Shown: one piece after another, positions 38,213 to 53,963 of the stretch
Numbering within the stretch: position 1 is the first letter of the stretch
Layout of the letters: each line of letters begins with the position of its first letter
DNA from: Arthrobacter sp. H20
GTDB lineage: Bacteria; Actinomycetota; Actinomycetes; Actinomycetales; Micrococcaceae
Assembly (NCBI RefSeq): GCF_000520515.1
Contig: NZ_KI914712.1
Location: forward strand, 135,680 to 199,679
Direction: 5' to 3'
DNA: 64,000 nucleotides
Translations under genes and position numbers: made by a program
Notes under the pieces: model-generated
What the model was told of the DNA's origin: nothing
Database searches by the model: none
Seen by the model: the letters and a program-made list of their open reading frames with translations, nothing else

Positions 38213-39568
38213 CTACTCGCAGCCCGCCCCGTCGCCGTCGCGGTCCAGATGGGTGCCATAGCCTGGGTGCCCGGCGTACACCGGTGCAGCGCCAGCATTG
38301 CGTGCGGCAGTGCAGTTTTCGTAATAGGCGGCCGGGGCTGGAACAGGCACTGGCTCTGGAGCTGGTGCAGGCGCAGGTTCCGGGGCCGGAGCTGGGGCGG
38401 GTGCAGGTGCTGGGGCTGGCGCGGGAGCCTGAGTGGGTGCTGGTTCCGGTGTCGGCTCGGGGGCAGTTTGATTGGTCGGTGCCAGCTGGTCGGAGCAGGT
38501 CGCCAGAACGCGTGCCATCGCGTCCCGTTCGGCCTGGGTGACCCACAGGCTGTAGGTCGCTTTCACCGAGATCTGCCGGGCAACATACTCACAGCGGAAC
38601 GACTGGTTCGGCGGCAGCCAGGTGGCGGCGTCGCCCGCCCCCTTTTGCGCATTGGTGGGCCCGTCTGTGGCCTGAAGATTCAGGGGGTCGTTGGCGAAGG
38701 CAAGACGCTGCTCTGCGCTGAGCTGCTGGGCGCCCTTCTGCCAGGCATCGGCCAAGGCCACCACATGGTCGATCTGGACGTCGATACTGGTGGACTGTCC
38801 CCTAAGGAAGTCGATAGTGGTGCCGGTATAGGGGTCGTCAAGGACGCCCGACGCGACCTTGCACGGCACCGAGTTGGCGTGGATGATCGCCGTGAGATCC
38901 CGGTTGAGCATGTCGTTGCGGGTATCACAGCCGTTGCGGTCGACGTCGGCCCAAGCCTGTCCAAACAGGTCCCTGTCATAGCCGGTTTTAGACGCCCGGC
39001 CTTTGACTTCGAGGGTATCCAGCAAATCCAGGGAGCGAGAGCCGTATGCGGGCTGGCCCTCGGGCGCTGTTGAATCGCCATCAACAGGAACCACTTCAGC
39101 GCTGTCGAGTGGAGCCACCTCCGCGCTCGGAGTGGGCGACAGCGTGGCGGGCGGTGTCTTTTTCGGCGTCGCGGACGGGGCCGGAGTGGCTGACGGGGTC
39201 GGGACGGCTGACGGCGGGGGGGCTGAGGTAGTTTCCTCGGCGACGGCTGCCGGTGCGGTGGTGTCGCTCGGCGGCGCGAGGACCGCCCCGACAATAAAGG
39301 CGACCAGGGCACCCGCCATGGTGATCGAGCCCATCTTCCGGCCAGTGATTCCGGCCCACGACGGCCTGTTGGTGACAACCACGTAGAGCCCGGTACCGAA
39401 CGCGACCAGACCGGCCATGATGACCGCGCCGCTCACGCCGCTGCTGATGAATCCCATGACGATCAGGAAGAGACAGACGCCGGCCGCGATAGCCGTGGAG
39501 ACCTGGGTCTTAGGCTTGTCCGTCGGTGGCGGGGTAGTCGGGGCAGGCGGCAGCGACGGACTATTCAA
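38213..39568 (-). CDS. Membrane-anchored HNH-type nuclease with Pro/Ala stalk and Excalibur domain
   Basis: Residues about 1-100 hold hydrophobic segments (IAAGVCLFLIVMGFISSGVS, VAFGTGLYVVV, IVGAVLAPPS) that anchor it. A Thr/Pro/Ala linker leads to a DUF1524/GmrSD-type HNH nuclease core (YDRDLFGQAW, IDVQIDHVVALADAW, DPLNLQATDGPTNAQKG). A low-complexity Ala-Pro stalk of about 45 residues then leads to a C-terminal Excalibur calcium-binding motif, YYENCTAARNAGAAPVY ending DRDGDGAGCE. The start is TTG 39568, behind GGGGGAA. The nuclease would act outside the cell, perhaps for DNA uptake or nutrition; this is inferred. The length is 451 residues. Confidence 0.8.
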   Translation of the reverse strand: MNSPSLPPAPTTPPPTDKPKTQVSTAIAAGVCLFLIVMGFISSGVSGAVIMAGLVAFGTGLYVVVTNRPSWAGITGRKMGSITMAGALVAFIVGAVLAPPSDTTAPAAVAEETTSAPPPSAVPTPSATPAPSATPKKTPPATLSPTPSAEVAPLDSAEVVPVDGDSTAPEGQPAYGSRSLDLLDTLEVKGRASKTGYDRDLFGQAWADVDRNGCDTRNDMLNRDLTAIIHANSVPCKVASGVLDDPYTGTTIDFLRGQSTSIDVQIDHVVALADAWQKGAQQLSAEQRLAFANDPLNLQATDGPTNAQKGAGDAATWLPPNQSFRCEYVARQISVKATYSLWVTQAERDAMARVLATCSDQLAPTNQTAPEPTPEPAPTQAPAPAPAPAPAPAPAPEPAPAPAPEPVPVPAPAAYYENCTAARNAGAAPVYAGHPGYGTHLDRDGDGAGCE

Positions 39569-42697: not shown

Positions 42698-42741
42698 ACA
42701 GTCTGGACAAGCGTGGCCGGTATTTCCCTATCAAATGTCCA

Positions 42742-42817: not shown

Positions 42818-44104
42818 ATGGCTATGAGCAAAGCGAAGGGGTCCGCCGCATTATTGGCCGGGGCACTGGCCATCGTCCTGGGTACCGAGGAAATCCCGCT
42901 CCGCCTGCGGGCATGGGACGGTTCGGAGGCCGGCCCGGAGGGTGCACCGGTGATCGAGTTCCGCTCCCGGCGAGCGCTGCGGCGCATGCTCTGGTCCCCC
43001 GGCATGCTGGGCCTGAGCCGGGCCTATGTGGCACGCGATATCGACGTCCCCGGGGATCTCTACGAGAGCTTCACGGCGCTCAGCGCCGTCGGAAAGTTCG
43101 CCGACCTTGAACCCTTCAGCCCGCCGACACTCCGCGAACGGGTCGCCCTGCTGAGCACCGCCGTCCGCCTCGGCGCCATCGGCCGCAACCCTCCGCTGCC
43201 ACCAGAGGAAATCACCATCGACCGCGTGGGCAGGAAACACTCGAAGAAGCGCGACGCCGCCGCCATCTCCCACCACTACGACGTCGGCAACGACTTTTAC
43301 GCGCTCGTCCTCGGTCCGTCCATGGTGTACTCGTGCGCGGTCTGGGACTCCCCTGGCACCGGCCTCGATGCAGCGCAGGAGGCGAAACTCGACCTGGTCT
43401 GCCGGAAACTGGGGCTGCAGCCTGGGATGCGAGTGCTCGATGTGGGGTGTGGTTGGGGCAGCTTCGCGCTGCACGCCGCCCAGCGGCACGGGGCCGACGT
43501 CGTCGGCGTCACCCTCTCCACCGAACAGGCGGAGCGCGCCCGCAAAAGGGTGGCCCACGCCGGGCTTAGCGAGCGGGTGCAGGTTCGGGTGCAGGATTAC
43601 CGCGACGTCAACGACGGCCCGTTCGATGCGATCAGTTCCATCGGCATGTCCGAGCACGTGGGGCGTGACCAGATCGCAGCGTATGCGGGCCGCCTGTTCG
43701 GCCTCCTGCGCCCCGGCGGACGACTTCTTAATCACGCCATCTCCTGGAACGCCGGGGACACCATGCGGCCGGACCCCGATTCGTTCATCCCCAAGTATGT
43801 CTTTCCCGACGGCGAAATGCTCAGCCTCACCGTGATGCTCGGTGCACTGGAATCCGCAAAGTTTGAAGTGCTCGACGTCGAAGCATTGCGGCGACACTAC
43901 GCGCTCACCCTTCGGGCGTGGGTGCAGAACCTTGAGGATCATTGGGAGGAGGCGGTGGGCCTCACCAGCGAGGGCCGCGCCCGGGTGTGGCGCCTGTATA
44001 TGGCGACCAGTGCGCTGGGGTTCGAGAACGGACTGACAGGCGTGAACCAGGTGTTGGTGCAGCGACCCGGCGGGGCGGAGCCTCCGCTGCGGCGGACCAT
44101 CTGA
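42818..44104 (+). CDS. cfa: Cyclopropane-fatty-acyl-phospholipid synthase
   Basis: Methylates unsaturated acyl chains of membrane phospholipids using S-adenosylmethionine. The 428-residue protein has the N-terminal lipid-binding region (SRAYVARDIDVPGDLYES), YDVGNDFYALVLGPSMVYSC, the SAM loop VLDVGCGWGSFALHAAQRHG near residue 207, SIGMSEHVGRDQIAAY and the C-terminal EVLDVEALRRHYALTLRAW. These are the CFA-synthase hallmarks. ATG 42818 follows GGAG. The extended N-terminus of about 130 residues fits the actinobacterial form. Alternatives are methyl-branching enzymes of the same fold (tuberculostearate-type). Confidence 0.9.
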   Translation: MAMSKAKGSAALLAGALAIVLGTEEIPLRLRAWDGSEAGPEGAPVIEFRSRRALRRMLWSPGMLGLSRAYVARDIDVPGDLYESFTALSAVGKFADLEPFSPPTLRERVALLSTAVRLGAIGRNPPLPPEEITIDRVGRKHSKKRDAAAISHHYDVGNDFYALVLGPSMVYSCAVWDSPGTGLDAAQEAKLDLVCRKLGLQPGMRVLDVGCGWGSFALHAAQRHGADVVGVTLSTEQAERARKRVAHAGLSERVQVRVQDYRDVNDGPFDAISSIGMSEHVGRDQIAAYAGRLFGLLRPGGRLLNHAISWNAGDTMRPDPDSFIPKYVFPDGEMLSLTVMLGALESAKFEVLDVEALRRHYALTLRAWVQNLEDHWEEAVGLTSEGRARVWRLYMATSALGFENGLTGVNQVLVQRPGGAEPPLRRTI

Positions 44105-44184
44105 GGACTCGCCCCGTTAAGGGGGGAGCCGTGCCCTAGCATTGAATACCAAAGGCATCCTAGGGTTAGGTGGACTCAGGGCGG

Positions 44185-45627
44185 ATGGATTTCTACGGGG
44201 TCAATTCCCTACGCGAAAATAATGCAGGCTGGTCGTTGCTCCGCGCCCAAAACGCCCCGCTGGCAATAACCTTCTTCATTACGGCCTTCACCGGGCCCAA
44301 TGAGCGTAATCTCGGCCGCCAGCAGCTCGTCGATACCCTGGACGACGTGCTCTTTGGCCTCCGGGACTCATTCGGGGATGACAGCTATCCCCGTACCGCC
44401 GCCGACTACCTTGATGATTGGGCGGCACCCGAACGCGCCTGGTTGCGGAAGTACTACGTCACGGGCCAGGACGAACCGCGCTACGACCTGACGCCAGCAG
44501 CCGAAAGCGCGCTCCGGTGGGTGGAGAGTCTGCAGGGCCGTGACTTCGTCGCCACGCAGTCGCGGCTCACCAGCATCTTCGCCGTCCTCAAACAGCTGGT
44601 CCAGCGCTCCGAAACCGATCCGGATGAGCGGCTTGCCGAGCTGCAACGGCAGCGCGACGACATCGACGCCGAGATGCAGCGCATCAGGGACGGTCATATT
44701 GCGGTGATGAGTGCTCCCGAAGCACTGGACCACTTCCAGCAACTCACCGCGCTGGCACGGGACTTGCTCGCGGATTTCCGCGAAGTCGAACAGAACTTCC
44801 GCAAACTCGACCGTCAGGTGCGCGAACAGATCGCCACGTGGGACGGCACCCAGGGCGAACTGCTGGCCTCCATCTTCGCCAATCAGCAGGACATCAGCAG
44901 CTCCCTGCAGGGACGAACCTTCCAGGGCTTCTGGGACTATCTCATGTCGCCCCGGCTCCGCACGGAACTCAGTGATCTGCTGGAACGCGCCACCCAGATC
45001 GACGCTCTCGCGAAGCTCGACAATATTCATGCGGTCGCCAACCTGCATCAGGACTGGCTCCCCGCGGTCGAGCAGACTCAGACGACCGTCCGCCAGCTGT
45101 CCCAGCAGATGCGTCGCCTACTGGATGACAAAGTATTCCTGGAGAACAAACGCATCATGCAGCTCATTCGCAGCATCGAATCCGGTGCCCTGGAGACCCG
45201 CGGGCGACCCGCGCCGGGCACCTTCATGTACCTCCCCGCCCCGGCCGTGGAGGTGGCGCTTCCCTTCGAACGCCCCCTCTACGAGCCGAGCCGGCGAGTG
45301 CTGGTCGACGACGCCATCGTGACCGCCGACGACTCCGACCTGGACGCCGCCGCCCTGTTCAGCCAGTTCCATGTGGACTCGGCGCGGCTCGTATCGCAGA
45401 TTGATGCTGTGCTGGCCGACACCGATCAAGCCAGCCTGGCGGACATCACCACCAGCTACCCGCTCTCTCAGGGGTTGGCCGAAATTGTTGCCTACTACCA
45501 GTTGGCCACTGAATCCCAGTGGGCCACCATCAACCCGGATTCCACCGATCAGCTCTTCTGGACACTTCCCGATGGAAGCATCAGGGAAGCCACCATCGAC
45601 CAGATCATTTTTGTGAGGCCCACATGA
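44185..45627 (+). CDS. jetA: Wadjet defence protein JetA (DUF3375)
   Basis: The kleisin-like subunit (MukF-related) of the Wadjet plasmid-restriction complex. The 480-residue protein starts MDFYGVNSLRENNAGWSLLR, with AQNAPLAITFFITAFTG and GRQQLVDTLDDVLFGLRDSF as the N-terminal winged-helix region. Charged helical stretches (LAELQRQRDDIDAEMQRIRD, FREVEQNFRKLDRQVREQI) and the C-terminal ATIDQIIFVRP end follow. These match DUF3375. ATG 44185 is chosen; GTG 44170 is an alternative. The stop overlaps jetB as ATGA. Confidence 0.92.
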   Translation: MDFYGVNSLRENNAGWSLLRAQNAPLAITFFITAFTGPNERNLGRQQLVDTLDDVLFGLRDSFGDDSYPRTAADYLDDWAAPERAWLRKYYVTGQDEPRYDLTPAAESALRWVESLQGRDFVATQSRLTSIFAVLKQLVQRSETDPDERLAELQRQRDDIDAEMQRIRDGHIAVMSAPEALDHFQQLTALARDLLADFREVEQNFRKLDRQVREQIATWDGTQGELLASIFANQQDISSSLQGRTFQGFWDYLMSPRLRTELSDLLERATQIDALAKLDNIHAVANLHQDWLPAVEQTQTTVRQLSQQMRRLLDDKVFLENKRIMQLIRSIESGALETRGRPAPGTFMYLPAPAVEVALPFERPLYEPSRRVLVDDAIVTADDSDLDAAALFSQFHVDSARLVSQIDAVLADTDQASLADITTSYPLSQGLAEIVAYYQLATESQWATINPDSTDQLFWTLPDGSIREATIDQIIFVRPT

Positions 45628-46265
45628 CCCTTGAAACGGACACCACCACGCCGCAGGAACTTCCCGGGGTGATTACCCGGCTCTTCAAAGGGGTGGTGTA
45701 CGCGGAATCCGATGAGAAAACCTGGCAGGCGTTGCTTGAGCTCACCTCGCAGGTGAGGGATTACGTTGCTGTCCTCGGCCTGGACCTCATCCTCGACGAA
45801 CCGGAAGGATACGCCTTCCTGCGCTCCCGGGAAGACCCGGAGAGCACCCTTCCACGGCTGATCCCCCGCCGCCAACTCACCTTCAACGTCAGTTTGCTGC
45901 TGGCCCTCCTGCGGGGCCGGATGCTCGAATTTGATACCAACAGCAGCGAGATCCGGCTGATCATGACGGAACAGGACATCGCCGATCTGGTGTCGGTCTT
46001 CCTTGCCGAATCGAGCAATGAGGCCCGGGTGCTCGACCGGCTCGGCTCGGACATCAAAAAGGTGGTGGAGTTGGGTTTCCTCCGCAAAATGCGCGGGCAA
46101 CCCGGAACCTATGAGGTAGCGCGGATCCTCAAGGCGTTTGTTGACGCGCAGTGGCTCGAAGAGTTCGATGCTCGGTTGGCCGACTACCGGGCGTCCCTGG
46201 CTGGGTCGGGCAGCAAGGAAAGCGGCGGCAAAGACGTCGGGGAGGTCGCGGGAGATGACAACTAA
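45624..46265 (+). CDS. jetB: Wadjet defence protein JetB (DUF4194)
   Basis: MukE-like winged-helix subunit of 213 residues that binds the kleisin JetA. Visible: GVITRLFKGVVYAESDEKTW, DYVAVLGLDLILDEPEGYAF, RRQLTFNVSLLLALLRGRML and a helical tail ending in a Gly/Ser/Lys-rich segment. DUF4194 is assigned from this pattern and the gene order. ATG overlaps the jetA stop; the last 11 bp overlap jetC. Confidence 0.92.
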   Translation: MTLETDTTTPQELPGVITRLFKGVVYAESDEKTWQALLELTSQVRDYVAVLGLDLILDEPEGYAFLRSREDPESTLPRLIPRRQLTFNVSLLLALLRGRMLEFDTNSSEIRLIMTEQDIADLVSVFLAESSNEARVLDRLGSDIKKVVELGFLRKMRGQPGTYEVARILKAFVDAQWLEEFDARLADYRASLAGSGSKESGGKDVGEVAGDDN

Positions 46266-49200
46266 CCAACAGGACAGCCTGTTCAGCCTTGATGAACCGT
46301 TGGAGGACGGCGCAATCCCCCCGGGGTTCCGCCTGCACCGACTCGAACTGCTGAACTGGGGAACCTTCCACCAGGGTGTGAGGACGTTCAGGCTCGACGG
46401 CGCCAACAGCCTGCTGACCGGCGATATTGGCTCGGGCAAGTCGACAGTGGTGGATGCCATCACCACCCTGCTGCTCCCGGCCAACCGGATTGATTACAAC
46501 AAGGCCGCCGGTGCGCAGAAAAAGGAACGCACCCTGATGTCCTACGTGCGGGGCTTCCACAAGAGCACACGCAGCGCCGGCGGCGAATACTCCAAGCCTG
46601 TTGCCCTGCGCAGCACCGGCACGCTGACCGTGGTCCTCGGGATCTTCCACAACGAACAGCTGGGCAAGTCGGTGAGCCTCGCGATCACGCTGTGGGCCAC
46701 GCAGGAGGCAGGGCAACCCAACCGTTTCTACTCCCTGTCCGAACACGCCCAGACCATTGCTCAGGACTTCGCCAATTTCGGCCAGGAACCCGCCAAACTG
46801 AAGAAACAGCTGCGGGCCGCTGGCGCCGTCGTGCACGATGCGTTTGATCCTTACGCCGCCGCCTTCAAACGGCAGTTTGGCATCACCGGGAACCAGGCCA
46901 TGGAGCTGTTCCACCGGACCGTGTCCATGAAGCAGGTGGAAAATATCACCTCCTTTGTCCGCACCAACATGTTGGAAGAGGACGACGCCGCCACCCGGAT
47001 CGGCACCCTGATCCACCATTTCGATGACCTCAAGAAGGCCCACGACGCCGTCGTCCGCGCCAAGGATCAGATCACCCTCCTCGAACCGATCCGCGACGGA
47101 TCCGCACTGCACGCCAGGCTGAGCCACGAGCACGAACTGTCACGCGCGCAGCGGGACCAGCTGCATCCCTGGTTCACCGACCGGAAGCTCCAGCTCAGCC
47201 TTGAGCATCATGAGGAGCTGCGCAGCACCGGGCTTCGCCTGAACGAGGACGCCGCCATAACCGCAGCGGACCTCGCCGACGCTAGGCATCAGGTGGGAGC
47301 GGTACAGGAAGACATCCGTTCGAACGGCGGCGGCCGGCTCGCGGCGATCGACGCCGACGTCTCCCGCCTGGGCTCGGAGCTGTCCCGCCAGCGGTCCCGC
47401 TTCGACGGCTATTCCACGGCCGCAGCAGACCTGGGTTTGCAGGCCCCGGAGGATCGCGTGCTGTTTGACCGCAACCGGGGCCGGTTGCCCGAGGTGGAGG
47501 CTGAGCTTCGCTCGCGATCCGCCGAACTGCAGGAGTCGGTGACCGGGCTGACCATCACTCGGACAGAACTCGACGGGCGGCTGCACGCTATTGACGCCGA
47601 ACTCGCCAGTCTGCAGGCCCGCGTCGACTTGCTGCCCGGCTACCAGGTGGAGCTGCGGCGCCGTCTCTGCGAGGGAACGGGAATCCCCGAATCGGTGCTG
47701 CCCTATGCGGGCGAGCTGTTGCGGGTACGCGACGGCGAGAGTGTGTGGGAAGGCGCCGCGGAACGCACCCTGCGGGGTTTCGCACTGTCGCTGCTGGTAC
47801 CGGAGAAACACTATGCGGCGGTCAGCAGCTGGGTGGACGGAAACAACCTGAAAGGACGCCTGGTCTACCGGCGGGTGGGAGACCGATATTCCCCGCGACC
47901 GGCCGAACCAGGAACCCTGGCCTCGAAGGTCTCGGTCAAACAGGCGACACCGTTCAAAGACTTCCTCCTTGATGAGCTGAGCGGCCGGTTCGACTATTTC
48001 TGCTGTGAGTCAATCGAGGACTTCCGCCGGCGCCCCCGAGCCCTGACCATGAGTGGCCAGCTCAAGGGTGGAGGCGGGCGCCACGAGAAGGACGATCGGA
48101 AAGACCTCGCGGACCGGCGCAACTTTGTCCTCGGCTGGGACAATCACGACAAGATCGCCCAGATCCGGGCGGAGCGGGACGAGCTGGCGGGTGATCGCTC
48201 CGGGGCTGATGCACGACTGACCAAAGTGTCCCAAGCGTTGGGCGCGCTCGGCCGGAAGCATCAGTATCTGGGCACCATCAGTTCCATCGCCGAGTTCGGC
48301 GAAATCGGTTGGCAGGAGACCGCCCAGAAGATCGAGGGGCTGAAAGCGGAACGTTCACGCCTCGAATCCGCGAGCGATGTGCTCCAGCAATTAGCCGTCC
48401 ACGAATCCGAACTCAAAGTCCAGGTGGGACGGCTCGAGGAGAAGGCGGGCAGGATTCAGCAGCGCCTGGGCGCCAACGAGAATGCGGCACGCGACATCGC
48501 CGAAGCGGTCGAGGACTGCCGCATGGTCCTGGCGGACACCCCGCTGACCGACGACGACGACGTCCTCGCCGCCGTCGGGGTGTTGGCCGCCGAGGCGTTG
48601 GGGAGCGCGACCCTGACCTACAAAAACACTGCCAGCGTGGAGTCGACGGTCCGGAACAAGCTGACGGGCGCCATCGACGCGTTGACCAAGCGGATCGCCA
48701 CCGCTGCCGAGTCAACGGTGCGCAGGATGGCCGACTTCCGCAACAAGTACCCGAACGAGACCACCGAGTTCGATGCTGCCCTCGAATCGGCTGGAGACTT
48801 TAACCGGATGCTGGACGGCTTGGTGAGCAATGACCTGCCCCGGTTCCAGACCCATTTCAAAGAGTCGTTGAACCAGAACACCATTCACGAGGTGGTGGCG
48901 TTCAACGCTTTCCTGGACAGCCGCCGGCAGGACATCGTTCACCGCATCAAGGAGATCAACGTGTCGCTGGCCGGGATTCCCTACAATCCCGGGCGGCACA
49001 TCCAACTGGAGCACCAGCCGACCACGGATCTCGACGTGCGGCAGTTCAGCATTGACCTGCGCGCGTGTTCGGAGGGAAGTCTGAACGATCAGGATCAGTA
49101 CTCCGAGCAGAAGTTCCTGCAGGTGGAACGGCTCATCGAGCGGTTCCGGGGGCGTGAGGGGTACACCGCGCTCGATGAGAAGTGGACCTGGAAGGTGACC

Positions 49201-49647
49201 GATGTCCGCAACTGGTTCACCTTCTCGGCGTCGGAAAAGTGGACCGAAACCGGTGAGGAGTACGAGCATTTCACCGACTCCGGTGGTAAATCTGGTGGCC
49301 AAAAGGAGAAGCTGGCGTACACCATCCTTGCCGCGGCCCTGGCCTTCCAATTCGGGCTCGGGTCCGCGGGCAAGACCAGCGGGAAAGCCGCCGGGCGCAG
49401 CTTCCGATTTGTTGTGATCGACGAGGCGTTCGGCCGCGGATCGGATGAGTCGGCTCGCTACGGCTTGGAGCTTTTCCAGCGGATGAAGCTGCAACTGCTG
49501 ATCGTCACGCCCCTGCAAAAGATCCACGTGATTGAACCCTTTGTCTCCCATGTGGGGTTTGTGGCCAACTCCAACGGCGATGATTCCCAGCTCCGCAACA
49601 TGACCATCCAGGAATACCGGGATGAGCGGGCTTCACGTGCCGGCTGA
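46255..49647 (+). CDS. jetC: Wadjet defence protein JetC (SMC/MukB-like ATPase)
   Basis: Motor of the complex, 1130 residues. Walker A GDIGSGKST at residues 56-64, long coiled-coil arms with a central hinge (about residues 470-620, where Cys-containing and charged segments break the heptads), the signature SGGQKEKLAYTILA near 1009-1020 and Walker B FVVIDEAFGRGSDESARYGL near 1052. It is thought to extrude DNA loops and present small circular DNA to JetD. ATG 46255 follows CGGGAG and overlaps jetB; the end overlaps jetD by 26 bp. Confidence 0.95.
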   Translation: MTTNQQDSLFSLDEPLEDGAIPPGFRLHRLELLNWGTFHQGVRTFRLDGANSLLTGDIGSGKSTVVDAITTLLLPANRIDYNKAAGAQKKERTLMSYVRGFHKSTRSAGGEYSKPVALRSTGTLTVVLGIFHNEQLGKSVSLAITLWATQEAGQPNRFYSLSEHAQTIAQDFANFGQEPAKLKKQLRAAGAVVHDAFDPYAAAFKRQFGITGNQAMELFHRTVSMKQVENITSFVRTNMLEEDDAATRIGTLIHHFDDLKKAHDAVVRAKDQITLLEPIRDGSALHARLSHEHELSRAQRDQLHPWFTDRKLQLSLEHHEELRSTGLRLNEDAAITAADLADARHQVGAVQEDIRSNGGGRLAAIDADVSRLGSELSRQRSRFDGYSTAAADLGLQAPEDRVLFDRNRGRLPEVEAELRSRSAELQESVTGLTITRTELDGRLHAIDAELASLQARVDLLPGYQVELRRRLCEGTGIPESVLPYAGELLRVRDGESVWEGAAERTLRGFALSLLVPEKHYAAVSSWVDGNNLKGRLVYRRVGDRYSPRPAEPGTLASKVSVKQATPFKDFLLDELSGRFDYFCCESIEDFRRRPRALTMSGQLKGGGGRHEKDDRKDLADRRNFVLGWDNHDKIAQIRAERDELAGDRSGADARLTKVSQALGALGRKHQYLGTISSIAEFGEIGWQETAQKIEGLKAERSRLESASDVLQQLAVHESELKVQVGRLEEKAGRIQQRLGANENAARDIAEAVEDCRMVLADTPLTDDDDVLAAVGVLAAEALGSATLTYKNTASVESTVRNKLTGAIDALTKRIATAAESTVRRMADFRNKYPNETTEFDAALESAGDFNRMLDGLVSNDLPRFQTHFKESLNQNTIHEVVAFNAFLDSRRQDIVHRIKEINVSLAGIPYNPGRHIQLEHQPTTDLDVRQFSIDLRACSEGSLNDQDQYSEQKFLQVERLIERFRGREGYTALDEKWTWKVTDVRNWFTFSASEKWTETGEEYEHFTDSGGKSGGQKEKLAYTILAAALAFQFGLGSAGKTSGKAAGRSFRFVVIDEAFGRGSDESARYGLELFQRMKLQLLIVTPLQKIHVIEPFVSHVGFVANSNGDDSQLRNMTIQEYRDERASRAG

Positions 49648-50914
49648 TTCCCGGTGGACTTCTCTGGCTGAGTTGCGCGCGCAGTCTGTTAAAGCGTGGG
49701 GTCGGGGCACCCTCCTGCGTGAACTGCTGGACCCCTCGGGCGCCTACCCTCGCCGTCGTTCGCTGAAAAAACCAACCGCTACTCAGTTGCGCGACAGCTA
49801 TCCTGCGGTGCGCACCTGGTCAGGGGAGTTGTTCGAAGCCGTCAGTGAGTTCACTCTGGAAACGGCTGACATTGGCCGAACCACCATCGGAACAAACAGT
49901 ATTCCGGCCGCTGCGGTGTTTGCCCGGGTGGAAGACGAAATCGCTTTTGCTGGCAAAACCCGGGACTCCCTTCGTGCCCTGGCAGTAGCCGGAAATCTTG
50001 CGGCAATTGACCCTGCCCTGCACGCCTGGGCAGCAAAGCGTCCACTGGAGCTACTGCGATTGGGCGACTCGGCGTTGCTCGCCGCCAGGGCCGCCGTGTG
50101 GCTTTCGACTAATCCAAACCCTGGAATCTTTGTCCGGCAGATGAACCTGCCCGGGATCCACACGAAGTTTGTCGAGAGCCACCGGCAGGCGGTGGACGAG
50201 ATGGTTGTCGCCCTGCGGGCTCGGGAGCCGATCGAGGGTCCCACTCCTTCCCCGCTGTCGACGGCCGGCGAGGACGATGCGCTGATCTTGCCTGAGGCCG
50301 TAGCCCCCACTGAAGCACTCGGGGCTTTTTCGCCGCGTACCCCGGCAGCGCGTTTCGCCCGGCGTTATGGATTTATTCATCCGCCCGAGCTGGTCCGCTT
50401 TCGACTGCTCGACGATCCGCTGCCGCATCTGGGCGCGCTGGGTAACGCCCGCGACATCACAGTAACGGCCGAGGTTTTCCGGACGCTGAGCTTGCCGGTG
50501 AGCACAGTCATTATCACCGAGAATCTGGTGAACTTCCTGTCCCTCCCGCATCGGCGCGCAAGCATGGCGCTTTTCGGCGCGGGCTACGGCTTTTCGGCGG
50601 TCCGCGACGCCGCGTGGTTACAGGATTGCGACGTCCTTTACTGGGGGGATATCGATACCCATGGTTTCCGCATCCTGGATTCATTGCGCTCAGTGCATCC
50701 TCACGTCTCCAGCATCCTGATGGATGAGTCGACCTTGCTGGCGCATCGCGCTGAGTGGGTCACCGAATCTTCGCAGGCGCAATCTGAACCGGTTCGGCTG
50801 AACCCTTCTGAATCGGCCCTGTACCGTGCGCTACGGGACAACGTGCATGGCTCTGCTGTGCGGTTGGAACAAGAGGTGATCCGCTGGGACTGGGTTACGG
50901 ATCGGTTGCCCTAA
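49622..50914 (+). CDS. jetD: Wadjet defence nuclease JetD (DUF3322-DUF2220, Toprim)
   Basis: The DNA-cleaving subunit, 430 residues. The N-terminal DUF3322 region starts WTSLAELRAQSVKAWGRGTL. The C-terminal Toprim domain has the catalytic Glu in STVIITENLVNFLSL (about residue 296) and the metal-binding DxD in YWGDIDTHGFRIL (about 342). These are the residues needed for plasmid cutting, so the nuclease looks active. Its start lies inside jetC, which ensures coordinate expression. Confidence 0.93.
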   Translation: MSGLHVPADSRWTSLAELRAQSVKAWGRGTLLRELLDPSGAYPRRRSLKKPTATQLRDSYPAVRTWSGELFEAVSEFTLETADIGRTTIGTNSIPAAAVFARVEDEIAFAGKTRDSLRALAVAGNLAAIDPALHAWAAKRPLELLRLGDSALLAARAAVWLSTNPNPGIFVRQMNLPGIHTKFVESHRQAVDEMVVALRAREPIEGPTPSPLSTAGEDDALILPEAVAPTEALGAFSPRTPAARFARRYGFIHPPELVRFRLLDDPLPHLGALGNARDITVTAEVFRTLSLPVSTVIITENLVNFLSLPHRRASMALFGAGYGFSAVRDAAWLQDCDVLYWGDIDTHGFRILDSLRSVHPHVSSILMDESTLLAHRAEWVTESSQAQSEPVRLNPSESALYRALRDNVHGSAVRLEQEVIRWDWVTDRLP

Positions 50915-51001
50915 TGTCTGTTGGTGTTCCTCAGCCTCGCCGGGTAGTGGGAGTCGCGCGAGTAAGGTGAACCAGGTCACCACAACCCGCGAAAGGCAGC
51001 A

Positions 51002-52246
51002 ATGACGCTTGCGACAGTTTTGAGGAACGGCCATGTGTTCGACGGCGAACGCTTCCTCCCAGGGCCCACCGACGTCGTCATCCGCGACGGGATGATCGAA
51101 GCAGTGGGCCGCGACGCCGGGCTGGCGGAGGCGTACGCAGATGCCACGGTGGTCGATTGTGCTGATCGCACGGTCCTACCCGGGATCATCGACCTGCACG
51201 TCCACGTGATGACCTCTACCCCCGGCTCCATCCAGGCAATGGTCGAGCCCTACTCTCTACAGTTCTACGAATCCGCGCGGAACCTTGAGGCCACCCTGCG
51301 CGCTGGCGTCACCACCGTGCGCGACGCCGGCGGCGCCGATCTGGGTGCCAAGCAGGCGGTCGAGACCGGGATCGTCAAAGGTCCACGGCTCCGCATCGCG
51401 GTCAGCATCATGTCCCAGACCGGCGGACACGGCGATCTGTGGCACCCCTCAGGACTGGACTCCCCCGACTTTGGGCCTCATCCCGGCCGCCCCAGCGGAA
51501 TCGCCGACGGCGTCGACGAAGTCCGCAAAGTCACCCGCACGCTCCTGCGGGCCGGCGCCGACCAGATCAAAATCTGTTCCACCGGCGGTGTCCTGTCGCC
51601 GACCACCGACCCTAAGCACTCCCAGTTCACCCCTGCGGAGATCGCCGTCGTCGTCGAGGAAGCCGAGATGCAGGGCAAGTACGTCATGGCCCACGCGCAG
51701 GGCACCGCCGGGATCATCAACGCGCTGCGGGCCGGCGTGCGGACCATCGAGCACGGCATTTATCTCACCGACGAGGCAATCCAGCTGTTCCTCGACACTG
51801 AGGCCTACCTCGTGCCCACCCTGTCTGCCCCACTGGCCGTGATCCGCAAGGGCGAATCCGGGACCAGCGGCCTGTCGCAGCAGGTCGTCGACAAGGCCCA
51901 ACGGGTCGCGGAGGACCACCGCCAGTCGGTCGCCCGGGCCATCGCCGCCGGGGTCAAGATCGGCATGGGCACCGACGCCGGAGTCGGCGCACACGGCGAC
52001 AATCTTGAAGAGCTCACACTGATGGCCGATGCCGGCATGACCCTCGAGCAGGTCCTGGCCGCTTCCAGCTCGGTGCCGGGCGAGCTGATCGCGCCGGTCG
52101 GCTCGGTGGGTCGGTTGGCAGAGCAGCAGCTGGCCGACGTCGTCGTGCTCACCGGCCAGCTCGAATCAGTGGAGCAGTTGCCTCACCTGCGGTCCATGAT
52201 CGGACAGGTATACCAGGGCGGCGTGCTGCAGTTCCCGACTGTGTGA
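51002..52246 (+). CDS. Amidohydrolase (imidazolonepropionase/prolidase-like)
   Basis: Metal-dependent hydrolase of 414 residues: GIIDLHVHVMTSTPG with the HxH pair, DQIKICSTGGVLSP with the bridging Lys, VMAHAQGTAGIINALRAGVR with metal His, TIEHGIYL and the catalytic Asp in GMGTDAGVGAHG. All metal and catalytic positions of the superfamily are retained. The closest groups hydrolyse amino-acid amides or dipeptides (Xaa-Pro/imidazolone). ATG 51002 follows GAAAGG. It lies just downstream of jetD with 87 bp between and is not a known Wadjet component. Confidence 0.87.
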   Translation: MTLATVLRNGHVFDGERFLPGPTDVVIRDGMIEAVGRDAGLAEAYADATVVDCADRTVLPGIIDLHVHVMTSTPGSIQAMVEPYSLQFYESARNLEATLRAGVTTVRDAGGADLGAKQAVETGIVKGPRLRIAVSIMSQTGGHGDLWHPSGLDSPDFGPHPGRPSGIADGVDEVRKVTRTLLRAGADQIKICSTGGVLSPTTDPKHSQFTPAEIAVVVEEAEMQGKYVMAHAQGTAGIINALRAGVRTIEHGIYLTDEAIQLFLDTEAYLVPTLSAPLAVIRKGESGTSGLSQQVVDKAQRVAEDHRQSVARAIAAGVKIGMGTDAGVGAHGDNLEELTLMADAGMTLEQVLAASSSVPGELIAPVGSVGRLAEQQLADVVVLTGQLESVEQLPHLRSMIGQVYQGGVLQFPTV

Positions 52247-52389
52247 TTGTTGACTGGTTGCGCCGCCGTTGGGTGCTGCCCAAGCAGGTCGGGCATTCGC
52301 TAGCTGATCGGCAAGGAACTGGATGGCGTGGCTGTGGCCGCTCGACGGCTGGACCCTGTCTATGGCCCTAGCCGGGGATCCGATCTTAT

Positions 52390-52405
52390 TCGAATGTTTG
52401 TTCGA
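52390..52405. promoter_or_regulatory. LexA (SOS) box upstream of the DUF222/HNH gene
   Basis: TCGAATGTTTGTTCGA matches the actinobacterial/Gram-positive LexA consensus TCGAAC-N4-GTTCGA at 11 of 12 fixed bases (T for C at the sixth). It lies 65 bp before the ATG. 13E12-type genes in mycobacteria are known to carry SOS boxes, which supports the reading. Confidence 0.65.
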
Positions 52406-52469: not shown

Positions 52470-53963
52470 ATGGACGGCAGCAAGGCTCCTACATCGATTC
52501 GGAAGGAATCTCCCCTCCCGGGAACCGGCCCGCGCGGTTCTTCTGGTCCGGGTAGTACTGCTGATGGCAGTACTGCTGATGGCAGCGCTTCCCGGGATGC
52601 TGGCATTCGGGTTTTGCTCAACTCTCTCCAGTCGCTGAAGCCAGCCACTGACTCCGCCGGGATGATCAATCAGCTCCGCGGACTAGAGGACGTGAAATCC
52701 GCCATCGCCGGCGTGCAGGCCCAGATTGCTGTGGCCTTCGACCTCTCCGAACGCCACTCCCAGGCCAACGCCGGTGTGCCAGGCGTGGAGCAGGGCAAAA
52801 GTGTTGCCGCTCAGATCGCACTTTCCCGGCGGGAATCACCATCCCGCGGCAGCCGGCTCCTGGGCTTGGCGCGGGCGCTAGTCACGGAAATGCCACACAC
52901 CCTCGCCGCCCTGCACACCGGCCAACTCAACGAGTGGCGGGCCACCCTGTTGGTGAAAGAAACCGCATGCCTGTCCGCCGCCGACCGGTGCGCCGTCGAT
53001 GAAGAACTTTCCGCCGATACCGGAACGTTTACCGGATGCGGGGACAAAGCCATCATCGCCGCGGCGAAAGCTGCCGCGTACCGGCGGGACCCCCGTTCAG
53101 TGGTCAACCGGGCCGCCCACGCCGCCGGTGAACGCTATGTCAGTATCCGCCCGGCGCCGGACACCATGGCCTACCTCACCGCGTTGTTGCCGGTGAAGGG
53201 GGCCGTTGCAGCCTACGCGGCACTGACCCGGCACGCTGATGCGGCACGAGCCAGTGGGGACACCCGATCCCGCGGTCAACTCATGGCCGACACCCTCGTC
53301 GAACGCACCACCGGTGTGGCCGGAGGTATCTCCAGAGTAGAGCTCCAAGTCATCATGACCGACCGGGCACTCCTTCAGGGTGACAGTGAACCGGCACGAA
53401 TCCCCGGTTACGGCATCGTCCCCTCGTCCTGGGCGCGGGACCTCATCCAACCGGCTGAGCCCGCTGAAGCGCCTGAATCAGGGCATCCCGGCTTCAACGT
53501 CTGGGTCCGCCGCCTCTATACCGCGCCCACGACCGGTCAACTAGTCGGCGTGGACTCCAAAGCCAGGCTTTTCACCCCGTCCCAGCGCAGATTCATCGCT
53601 GCTAGAGACGACACCTGCCGCACCCCGTACTGTGATGCACCGATCCGGCACTACGACCACATCATCCCTTGGAGCCGAGGAGGCCCCACCACGATCAGCA
53701 ACGGCGCCGGGCTCTGCGAAACCTGCAACCACACCAAAGAACAACCCGGCTGGACAGCCCATGCACGCCCCGGACCAAGACACTCACTCCGGATTACTAC
53801 CCCCACCGGCCACAGCTATGACTCCACGGCCCCACCCCTACCCGGCACGGAACCCGCAATTCATCGCGCTTCTGTTGTCACCCGATTGCGCGACCGGGTC
53901 ACGAACGATCCAACCACGACCACCAGTACCAGCACACCCGCTGCCCAGGCCAGCCCCGCGTAG
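52470..53963 (+). CDS. DUF222/HNH endonuclease-domain protein (13E12 type)
   Basis: A 497-residue protein with the DUF222 helical region (about 60-330; QLRGLEDVKSAIAGVQAQIA, AVDEELSADTGTFTG) and an HNH core at about 380-418: DDTCRTPYCDAPIRHYDHII then PWSRGGPTTISNGAGLCETC. A 15-bp tandem repeat, AGTACTGCTGATGGC at 52554 and 52569, encodes a short Ser-Thr-Ala-Asp-Gly repeat near the N-terminus. The ribosome site for ATG 52470 is poorly spaced, so a different start is possible. The 3' end overlaps the convergent MFS gene by 103 bp. Such proteins are common in actinobacteria; physiological role unknown, SOS control likely. Confidence 0.85.
   Translation: MDGSKAPTSIRKESPLPGTGPRGSSGPGSTADGSTADGSASRDAGIRVLLNSLQSLKPATDSAGMINQLRGLEDVKSAIAGVQAQIAVAFDLSERHSQANAGVPGVEQGKSVAAQIALSRRESPSRGSRLLGLARALVTEMPHTLAALHTGQLNEWRATLLVKETACLSAADRCAVDEELSADTGTFTGCGDKAIIAAAKAAAYRRDPRSVVNRAAHAAGERYVSIRPAPDTMAYLTALLPVKGAVAAYAALTRHADAARASGDTRSRGQLMADTLVERTTGVAGGISRVELQVIMTDRALLQGDSEPARIPGYGIVPSSWARDLIQPAEPAEAPESGHPGFNVWVRRLYTAPTTGQLVGVDSKARLFTPSQRRFIAARDDTCRTPYCDAPIRHYDHIIPWSRGGPTTISNGAGLCETCNHTKEQPGWTAHARPGPRHSLRITTPTGHSYDSTAPPLPGTEPAIHRASVVTRLRDRVTNDPTTTTSTSTPAAQASPA

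Follow-up and report, generated by a model that had tools for sequence, protein, structure and literature searches.

Gene content and type assignment

The window, i.e., the whole stretch of 64,000 nucleotides from Arthrobacter sp. H20 that was analyzed (taken from a draft assembly of 88 contigs, 94.6% complete), contains at positions 44185-50914 four contiguous genes on the + strand, in the standard order jetA-jetB-jetC-jetD. The first gene, jetA (44185..45627), encodes a 480-aa kleisin subunit (DUF3375; PADLOC model PDLC00457 JetA1, 8.5e-196; PF11855, 2.2e-134; solved JetA 8q72, 5.8e-26), followed by jetB (45624..46265), which encodes a 213-aa KITE/MukE-like subunit (DUF4194; PDLC00474 JetB1, 3.3e-90; PF13835, 9.5e-42). 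The product of jetC (46255..49647) is a 1130-aa SMC/MukB-like ATPase (PDLC00512 JetC1, E=0, 1381 bits; solved JetC 8dk2, 5.4e-60, and 8as8, 1.7e-48), and that of jetD (49622..50914) is a 430-aa Toprim nuclease composed of DUF3322 and JetD_C (PDLC00530 JetD1, 3.2e-123; PF09983, 9.6e-52; PF11795, 2.3e-36; MksG 8b7f, 4.1e-20; JetD 7til, 1.3e-11). As calculated from the coordinates, adjacent genes overlap by 4 bp (jetA/jetB, ATGA), 11 bp (jetB/jetC), and 26 bp (jetC/jetD), and none of the four frames holds an internal stop or a frame break.

For all four subunits, the best PADLOC model was the type I one (JetA1, JetB1, JetC1, and JetD1), with scores far beyond chance, and the Jet models listed by the search for these proteins were all of type 1, with none of type II or III. 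Pfam DUF3375, DUF4194, and JetD_C matched above cut-off, and solved Jet proteins were recovered as relatives of JetA, JetC, and JetD; JetB had no match among the solved chains at E 0.001. The four subunit models, the gene order, the overlaps, and the motifs described below together support the assignment of the operon to type I Wadjet. It belongs to an already-known defence type, and the window copy is itself ordinary, one more complete example.

Catalytic motifs

JetC displays a Walker A motif (GDIGSGKST, residue 56), a signature motif (SGGKSGGQKEK, residue 1009), and a Walker B motif (FVVIDEAF, residue 1052). Its Pfam matches were AAA_29 and SbcC_Walker_B, and PADLOC also gave weak matches to LmuB, PtuA, mad3, and ATPase_I-A (1.3e-07 or worse). 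In JetD, the Toprim residues are E300 (the Glu) and D343 and D345 (the DxD), which are among five acidic positions that were invariant in 62 of 62 called JetD proteins, a set that comprised 61 relatives and the window's own protein, with further JetDs missed by the gene caller. E300 aligned with the residue that is replaced in the solved JetD(E248A) of 8q72, and E300 and D343 aligned with E236 and D279 of MksG (8b7f; MksG residues in our own count), for which a passage of PMC10123090 describes mutants with drastically impaired nuclease activity. An earlier note on this DNA had described a type I Wadjet of four intact genes in standard order with overlapping junctions, in which the Walker A, signature, and Walker B motifs of JetC and the Glu and DxD of JetD were kept. 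The open frames, overlaps, and residues given above bear this description out, and the type I reading is supported; a loss of the JetD catalytic residues, which that note had named as the refuting outcome, was looked for by alignment and not found. As for JetB, a passage of PMC10586767 reports an IFDR motif for contact with JetD in one studied system; read by eye, the N-terminus of the window JetB does not contain the letters IFDR as such, and the motif may not be general.

An alternative reading takes the operon as a condensin of the MukBEF/MksBEF type that chiefly folds the chromosome, with JetD idle or minor. JetC is indeed MukB-like, with matches to the Pfam MukB N-terminal domain (3.6e-4) and NCBIfam MukB (8.6e-5) that both fall below cut-off, JetB also matches MksE above cut-off (2.5e-18), and an MksBEF complex of P. 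aeruginosa, thought to have lost JetD, helps organize the chromosome according to a passage of PMC10586767. Such condensins, however, have no JetD/MksG subunit, whereas the jetD of the window is intact, overlaps jetC, and encodes catalytic residues that are invariant in the called relatives. Furthermore, JetC is patchy, occurring in 11 of 38 genomes of the host's genus, unlike a housekeeping condensin. We consider this reading very unlikely.

The insertion site and its flanking genes

The operon is a clean insert between two genes that adjoin each other in sister genomes. On its left lies a gene for a cyclopropane-synthase-like methyltransferase (CMAS, PF02353, 1.8e-91; 42818..44104, +, with a possible ORF start at 42713), which is 89-90% identical beside the empty sites of the relatives G213 and G145. 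On its right lies an amidohydrolase gene (51002..52246, +; Amidohydro_1, 2.6e-44), whose copies in G213 and G145 are 92% and 90% identical and stand only 55-56 bp from the left-flank gene, whereas ~6.9 kb separate the two genes in the window. Measured against the empty site of the sister G213 (locus L095), the insert spans ~6885 bp (44098..50982; junction sequences read by eye): Homology breaks off in the final codons of the left gene and restarts 19 bp before the amidohydrolase ATG. Between the flanks, the gene caller reported the four jet genes and nothing else, with no integrase or transposase, and the two junction stretches compared shared no word of at least 8 bases that could represent a direct repeat.

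Behind the amidohydrolase follows a gene for a DUF222 and HNH protein (52470..53963, +; PF02720, 6.4e-10, and PF01844, 1.9e-09, scored on the ORF from 52323), which also follows the amidohydrolase in L095 and L096, where the site is empty. The SOS-box consensus is TCGAACN4GTTCGA, and a palindrome with one mismatch to it, TCGAATGTTTGTTCGA, lies upstream of the HNH gene at 52390..52405, as the only site in the window with at most one mismatch. One-mismatch sites upstream of the HNH gene were also present in L051, L095, and L096; L101 has one that is not near such a gene. The longest DUF222-HNH ORF would begin at 52323 and so include the SOS-like box, which makes the ATG at 52470 a more probable start.

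These two genes could be taken as accessory parts of a larger defence unit, as both lie directly downstream on the same strand and the SOS-like box of the HNH gene is conserved. In G213 and G145, however, where no JetC match was found, both stand next to the left-flank gene. Neither recurred within four neighbors per side at any of 67 other loci of the window Wadjet type. A single weak HNH match of 75 residues at 33% identity was seen at L037. The larger unit is the least probable of the readings weighed here and is rejected: The amidohydrolase and the DUF222-HNH gene belong to the right flank of the insertion site, outside the Wadjet system. The earlier note was right that an amidohydrolase and an SOS-boxed nuclease-like gene follow downstream, but its hint that they travel with the Wadjet is not supported.

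Distribution of JetC and probable repeated use of the site

Wadjets also occur at or near this site in other relatives. In G171, the same gap holds a Wadjet with a JetC only 27% identical to that of the window, and in three further species Wadjets, or what remains of one, lie a few kb away at most. In the JetC tree, the window formed a group (support 0.999) with four congeneric species and two of other genera (G053 and G070), while G205, another species of the host's genus, fell elsewhere; the nearest neighbors of the window were joined at 0.805 only. L054 (41% identity) served as the outgroup, and L209 was dropped as the gene caller gave no jetC frame. We count the cross-genus grouping and the position of G205 for transfer. 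The comparison thus suggests that the operon was gained by transfer in the window lineage and that the site gains Wadjets repeatedly. Among plasmid records, few (18 of 72,556) had a JetC match, the best (71%) being on a 1.35-Mb replicon of Arthrobacter sp. StoSoilB13, and none of 50,697 phage records had a jetD match at 1e-5.

Remnants are known in relatives, with jetD 3′ fragments in G204 and G164 and a fragmented jetC in G015, and the window operon might be such a relic, intact-looking but silent or inactivated. Its four genes have no frame break and its motifs are kept, and we regard a relic as even less likely than a condensin. A conserved stand-alone mini-JetD, considered for the G204 and G164 fragments, which share the same start residue, was rejected, as the sequence before both resembles decayed jetD by eye.

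The genome scan for loci gave at least 80 candidate stretches. The neighbor count used 79 loci, of which 12 were duplicates, yielding the 67 above, and left out the partial or broken L157, L215, and L055 as well as L054. Long flanks were fetched for 20 of the 29 relatives at ≥60% identity. In the relatives search and the class-wide sample below, the best two to three candidates per genome were scored; the gene caller was home-made, and some starts are misplaced.

Association with VapBC

Within the host's family, a VapBC pair lies beside 25 of the 67 loci of the window Wadjet type, and none lies beside the window Wadjet itself. Just before the shared right flank, the window has 35 bp that are similar to the vapC end and downstream sequence of G171 (23 of 1000 shuffles were as good), as if a VapBC-ended cassette had stood there before. 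For other Wadjets, 16 loci were fetched (two loci overlap), and the VapC model found VapC at two of the 16, L051 and L143.

In a family sample not chosen for Wadjet, 28 of 197 genomes had a VapC match at 1e-6, ten of them full length at 60-81% identity. One of these ten (G171) adjoins a Wadjet, four (G164, G057, G158, and G151) have one at a distance of ~8 to 32 kb by coordinates, and five are far off, on another contig, or in a JetC-less genome; VapC is thus not exclusive to Wadjet. In a class-wide sample of 296 genomes, no link was seen: VapC occurred at 1e-15 in 11 genomes, JetC at 1e-30 in 49, and both in 4, where the pair was apart each time (on different contigs of draft genomes in 3, and >1 Mb apart in 1). 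VapBC as a general Wadjet partner is therefore not supported. The literature passages on Wadjet and VapBC or toxin-antitoxin systems returned by a limited search report no VapBC partner, and we claim no novelty.

These data leave room for a tentative model, which we consider rather unlikely, in which the gap serves for the exchange of Wadjets: Recombination in the flanks, with no integrase involved, would swap in and out entire jetABCD cassettes from the two lineages that differ so strongly in JetC, and one VapBC pair would often ride along as an addiction or guard module, having been lost in the window.

Proposed mechanism and significance

We hold it highly probable that the operon is a complete type I Wadjet, which would extrude and cut small circles and was probably gained by transfer at a site that seems to gain Wadjets repeatedly. 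Following passages of the review PMC10586767 and the MksG paper PMC10123090, a complex in which the kleisin JetA bridges JetC dimers and JetB is bound to them would load onto DNA and extrude loops driven by ATP. On a small circle, extrusion would run to completion such that the two motors meet, which would activate the JetD Toprim dimer to cut the circle, whereas on the chromosome and on large or linear replicons, extrusion would remain incomplete and these would escape cutting. Extrusion, circle sensing, and cleavage by the window system are predicted from work on homologues, and it may in this way act against small circular plasmids.

A passage of PMC10482375 gives Wadjet in 42% of actinobacterial genomes and reports the phylum as rich in them. 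The value of the present copy may lie in its setting, a clean pair of an empty and a filled site in sister species, which makes it possible to study the movement of a four-gene defence system that lacks mobility genes. VapBC accompanies roughly one in three of the related loci examined, and this offers a testable hint that Wadjet in the host's family is stabilized or guarded by a toxin-antitoxin pair.

Comparison with known systems

The window operon has the same A-B-C-D order as the type I JetABCD systems of E. coli GF4-3 and P. aeruginosa PA14 (strain names as in a passage of PMC10586767) and the same set of DUF3375, DUF4194, MukB-like ATPase, and Toprim nuclease proteins, with the Walker and Toprim residues kept. 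It is distant from the solved Jet proteins (phmmer, JetC 5.4e-60; JetD 8.2e-07 for 8q72 and 1.3e-11 for 7til), and its JetD has ~40 extra residues relative to the best PADLOC profile (10-429 against 3-383).

A second type I lineage is present within the host's genus, for example at L051 of G171, in the same chromosomal gap. The type I Jet models were best for its four proteins, yet its JetA, JetC, and JetD are only 26-29% identical to those of the window, and its JetB gave no match at 1e-4; a VapC-like PIN gene comes next in L051, and the window Wadjet has no VapBC beside it. A passage of PMC10123090 classes the MksBEFG system of Corynebacterium glutamicum as Wadjet type I. This system is actinobacterial like the window, and among solved proteins its MksG scores best as a relative of the window JetD. 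According to the same passage, the MksBEFG operon adjoins adhA, whereas the window operon is set between the CMAS-like methyltransferase and the amidohydrolase.

A complete type I Wadjet operon in the window

The four genes of the operon all lie on the + strand with intact open reading frames, namely jetA (44185-45627, kleisin), jetB (45624-46265, MukE-like KITE protein), jetC (46255-49647, MukB-like SMC ATPase) and jetD (49622-50914, Toprim nuclease). The gene positions proposed in an earlier note were exact, as were the junction overlaps of 4, 11 and 26 bp, and its assignment to type I Wadjet was borne out by PADLOC, where type I models were the best match for all four proteins (JetA1, 8.5e-196; JetB1, 3.3e-90; JetC1, 1381 bits; JetD1, 3.2e-123), with Pfam domains in line (DUF3375; DUF4194; AAA_29 and SbcC_Walker_B; DUF3322 and JetD_C). 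Solved relatives were found for JetA (8q72, 8as8, 8dk1), JetC (8dk2, 8as8) and JetD (MksG 8b7f, 7til, 8q72), and none for JetB at E 0.001.

The ATPase motifs ascribed to JetC are present (GDIGSGKST at residue 56, SGGKSGGQKEK at 1009 and FVVIDEAF at 1052). We also looked for a loss of JetD catalytic residues, named beforehand as the finding that would speak against the system, and observed that they are kept: E300, D343 and D345 are present. Together with E416 and E418 they are invariant in all 62 JetD proteins called, the window's included. E300 aligns to the mutated position of the 8q72 chain named JetD(E248A), and alignment with MksG 8b7f places E300 and D343 at E236 and D279 (our own count, after the tag), at either of which alanine drastically impaired the nuclease, according to an excerpt of PMC10123090. 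The system therefore stood up to this check.

The operon occupies a site that is empty in relatives

In two genomes of relatives, G213 and G145, neither of which has a JetC match, the amidohydrolase gene follows the CMAS-like methyltransferase gene at a distance of 55-56 bp, with the DUF222-HNH gene farther on. Compared by eye with the empty site of G213, homology of the window ends within the final codons of the CMAS-like methyltransferase gene, at about 44097, and resumes at about 50983, 19 bp before the ATG of the amidohydrolase gene. These breaks delimit an insert of about 6885 bp, whose gene content is jetABCD only. The left gene product ends in ...RRTI in the window and in ...RRTDWL in G213 (own translation), and the insert ends display no direct repeat of at least 8 bases. 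G213 and G145 share an almost identical intergenic sequence at the empty site, which suggests that the empty state is the older one. As a separate observation, the 35 bp preceding the shared right flank (50946-50980) are similar to the end of vapC and the sequence behind it in genome G171 (locus L051, 13317-13350), with 23 of 1000 shuffles scoring as well; the same stretch has no likeness to the G213 empty site (980 of 1000 shuffles as good).

A search of 38 genomes of the genus, the window's own among them, found amidohydrolase orthologues (78-92% identity) in 8 besides the window's. The CMAS-like and amidohydrolase genes adjoin in G221, G223 and G204 too; G207 has them in the opposite order, separated by one gene, and G193 shows no close copy of the CMAS-like gene beside the amidohydrolase. 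In L051 and at both empty sites (L095, L096), the HNH gene has an upstream one-mismatch counterpart of the SOS-like box at 52390, which hence belongs to that gene and not to the Wadjet. The idea that the downstream genes travel with the Wadjet was not supported: both flank a Wadjet-free site, and at 67 distinct same-type loci in other genomes the genes that flank the window operon (four per side) do not recur within four genes, the sole exception being one short HNH-domain match at L037. The amidohydrolase and DUF222-HNH genes are the flank of the insertion site.

Other Wadjets at or near the same site

In G171, the same gap holds another Wadjet, also type I by PADLOC, with JetA, JetC and JetD 26-29% identical to the window's. 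G222 and G223 carry relatives of this second lineage, in G222 one gene beyond the CMAS-like gene and in G223 directly after the amidohydrolase gene. In G221 the pieces are split over two contigs. The contig of the CMAS-like and amidohydrolase genes also carries, close to its end, a homologue (85% identity) of the pre-Wadjet gene of G222, and the Wadjet begins at the end of the other contig, from which we infer its linkage to the site.

Next to the window's insertion site, about 0.8 kb after the amidohydrolase gene, G204 retains the 3′ end of a window-type jetD (L101 16351-16758; 64% over 134 residues), accompanied by a PIN gene and part of a vapB. Another jetD 3′ remnant, in G164 (L031 18043-18453; both are 135-136 codons long), lies 1.9 kb from a VapBC pair and some 6 kb after an intact jetABCD. 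The window-type operons of G206 and G203 are located away from this gap, near homologues of window gene 38213 and, for G206, also of 37157; in the window both genes lie 5-7 kb upstream of jetA. Gene 38213-39457 (-), whose homologues thus lie near Wadjet in G206 and G203, encodes GmrSD_C (5.3e-20) and Excalibur (6e-15) domains.

Of 38 genomes of the genus, 11 have JetC: 7 belong to the window's type, of which one is truncated by a contig end, and 4 to the second lineage. Across the 197 genomes of the family sample, 112 had a JetC match at 0.001; the top 30 rows, with the window's own counted, share at least 60% identity across nearly the full length, and most remaining matches are 25-32% identical (G016, 41%; G015, fragments). 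A JetC tree, from which the partial G217 was left out, placed the window, at support 0.999, in a group with two species of other genera and four of its own, and put G205, of the same genus, elsewhere, a pattern that suggests gain by transfer. Among the named carriers that a genome scan listed, Arthrobacter, Pseudarthrobacter and Paenarthrobacter predominate, several with loci identical in sequence to loci from the window's family; the G206 locus is that of Arthrobacter sp. Br18 (L154 = L186). These matches suggest that the family is Micrococcaceae. One JetC, 71% identical to the window's, lies on a 1.35-Mb replicon listed as an Arthrobacter sp. StoSoilB13 plasmid (H1, NZ_AP024648.1 815268-818673). 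An excerpt of PMC10482375 reports Wadjet in 42% of genomes in the phylum.

A VapBC-type pair as a recurrent neighbour

The recurrent neighbour of tightest position was a VapBC-type pair (PIN toxin PF01850, Phd/YefM antitoxin PF02604). VapC was called at 22 of 67 loci, upstream of the operon at place 1 (11/65), 2 (2/62) and 3 (2/59) and downstream at place 1 (1/67), 2 (5/67) and 5 (1/65), and at no other place out to nine genes, a range that fewer loci reach. By translated search, vapB or vapC, in some cases as fragments only, is present at 25 of 67 loci, which is not a count of events because related loci are not independent; the distance to the operon is 19-635 bp at 21 of them (14 upstream, 7 downstream) and 2.3-4.6 kb at the other 4. 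L159 (7060-7715) is an example. VapC was present in 27 of 39 genomes searched, with a single match each save one with two; 22 of these 27 had been picked beforehand as locus-positive. The same VapC family adjoins the second-lineage Wadjets of G171 and G222, which are 2 of the 16 loci retrieved for other Wadjets.

The window is without VapBC (best translated matches in its entire length, E 0.29), and its own genome has no VapC match. VapC was also found away from Wadjet in the family sample, and a class-level sample displayed no VapC-Wadjet linkage. G099, a genome of the window's genus with no JetC match, carries a decayed vapB/vapC (L267 9811-10276) about 6.5 kb from the CMAS-like gene, perhaps the trace of a lost Wadjet. 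In G048, a weak VapC-like match (33%; C5:270215-270586, -) lies, by coordinates only, about 2.3 kb from a JetC of distant kind (30%; C5:264661-267951).

Proposed mechanism and comparison with known Wadjets

The window operon very probably works as a type I Wadjet, by extrusion and JetD cutting of small circles. By homology, JetABC would extrude DNA loops in an ATP-driven manner, complete extrusion of a small circle would activate JetD to cut it, and linear DNA and circles larger than about 100 kb would escape; loop extrusion, JetD activation and the circle limit are those given for type I Wadjet in an excerpt of PMC10586767. What is added here is modest, namely a comparison of filled, empty and other-Wadjet states at a single site, together with the VapBC association in the family. 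The operon itself is a real, complete and ordinary Wadjet of a known kind.
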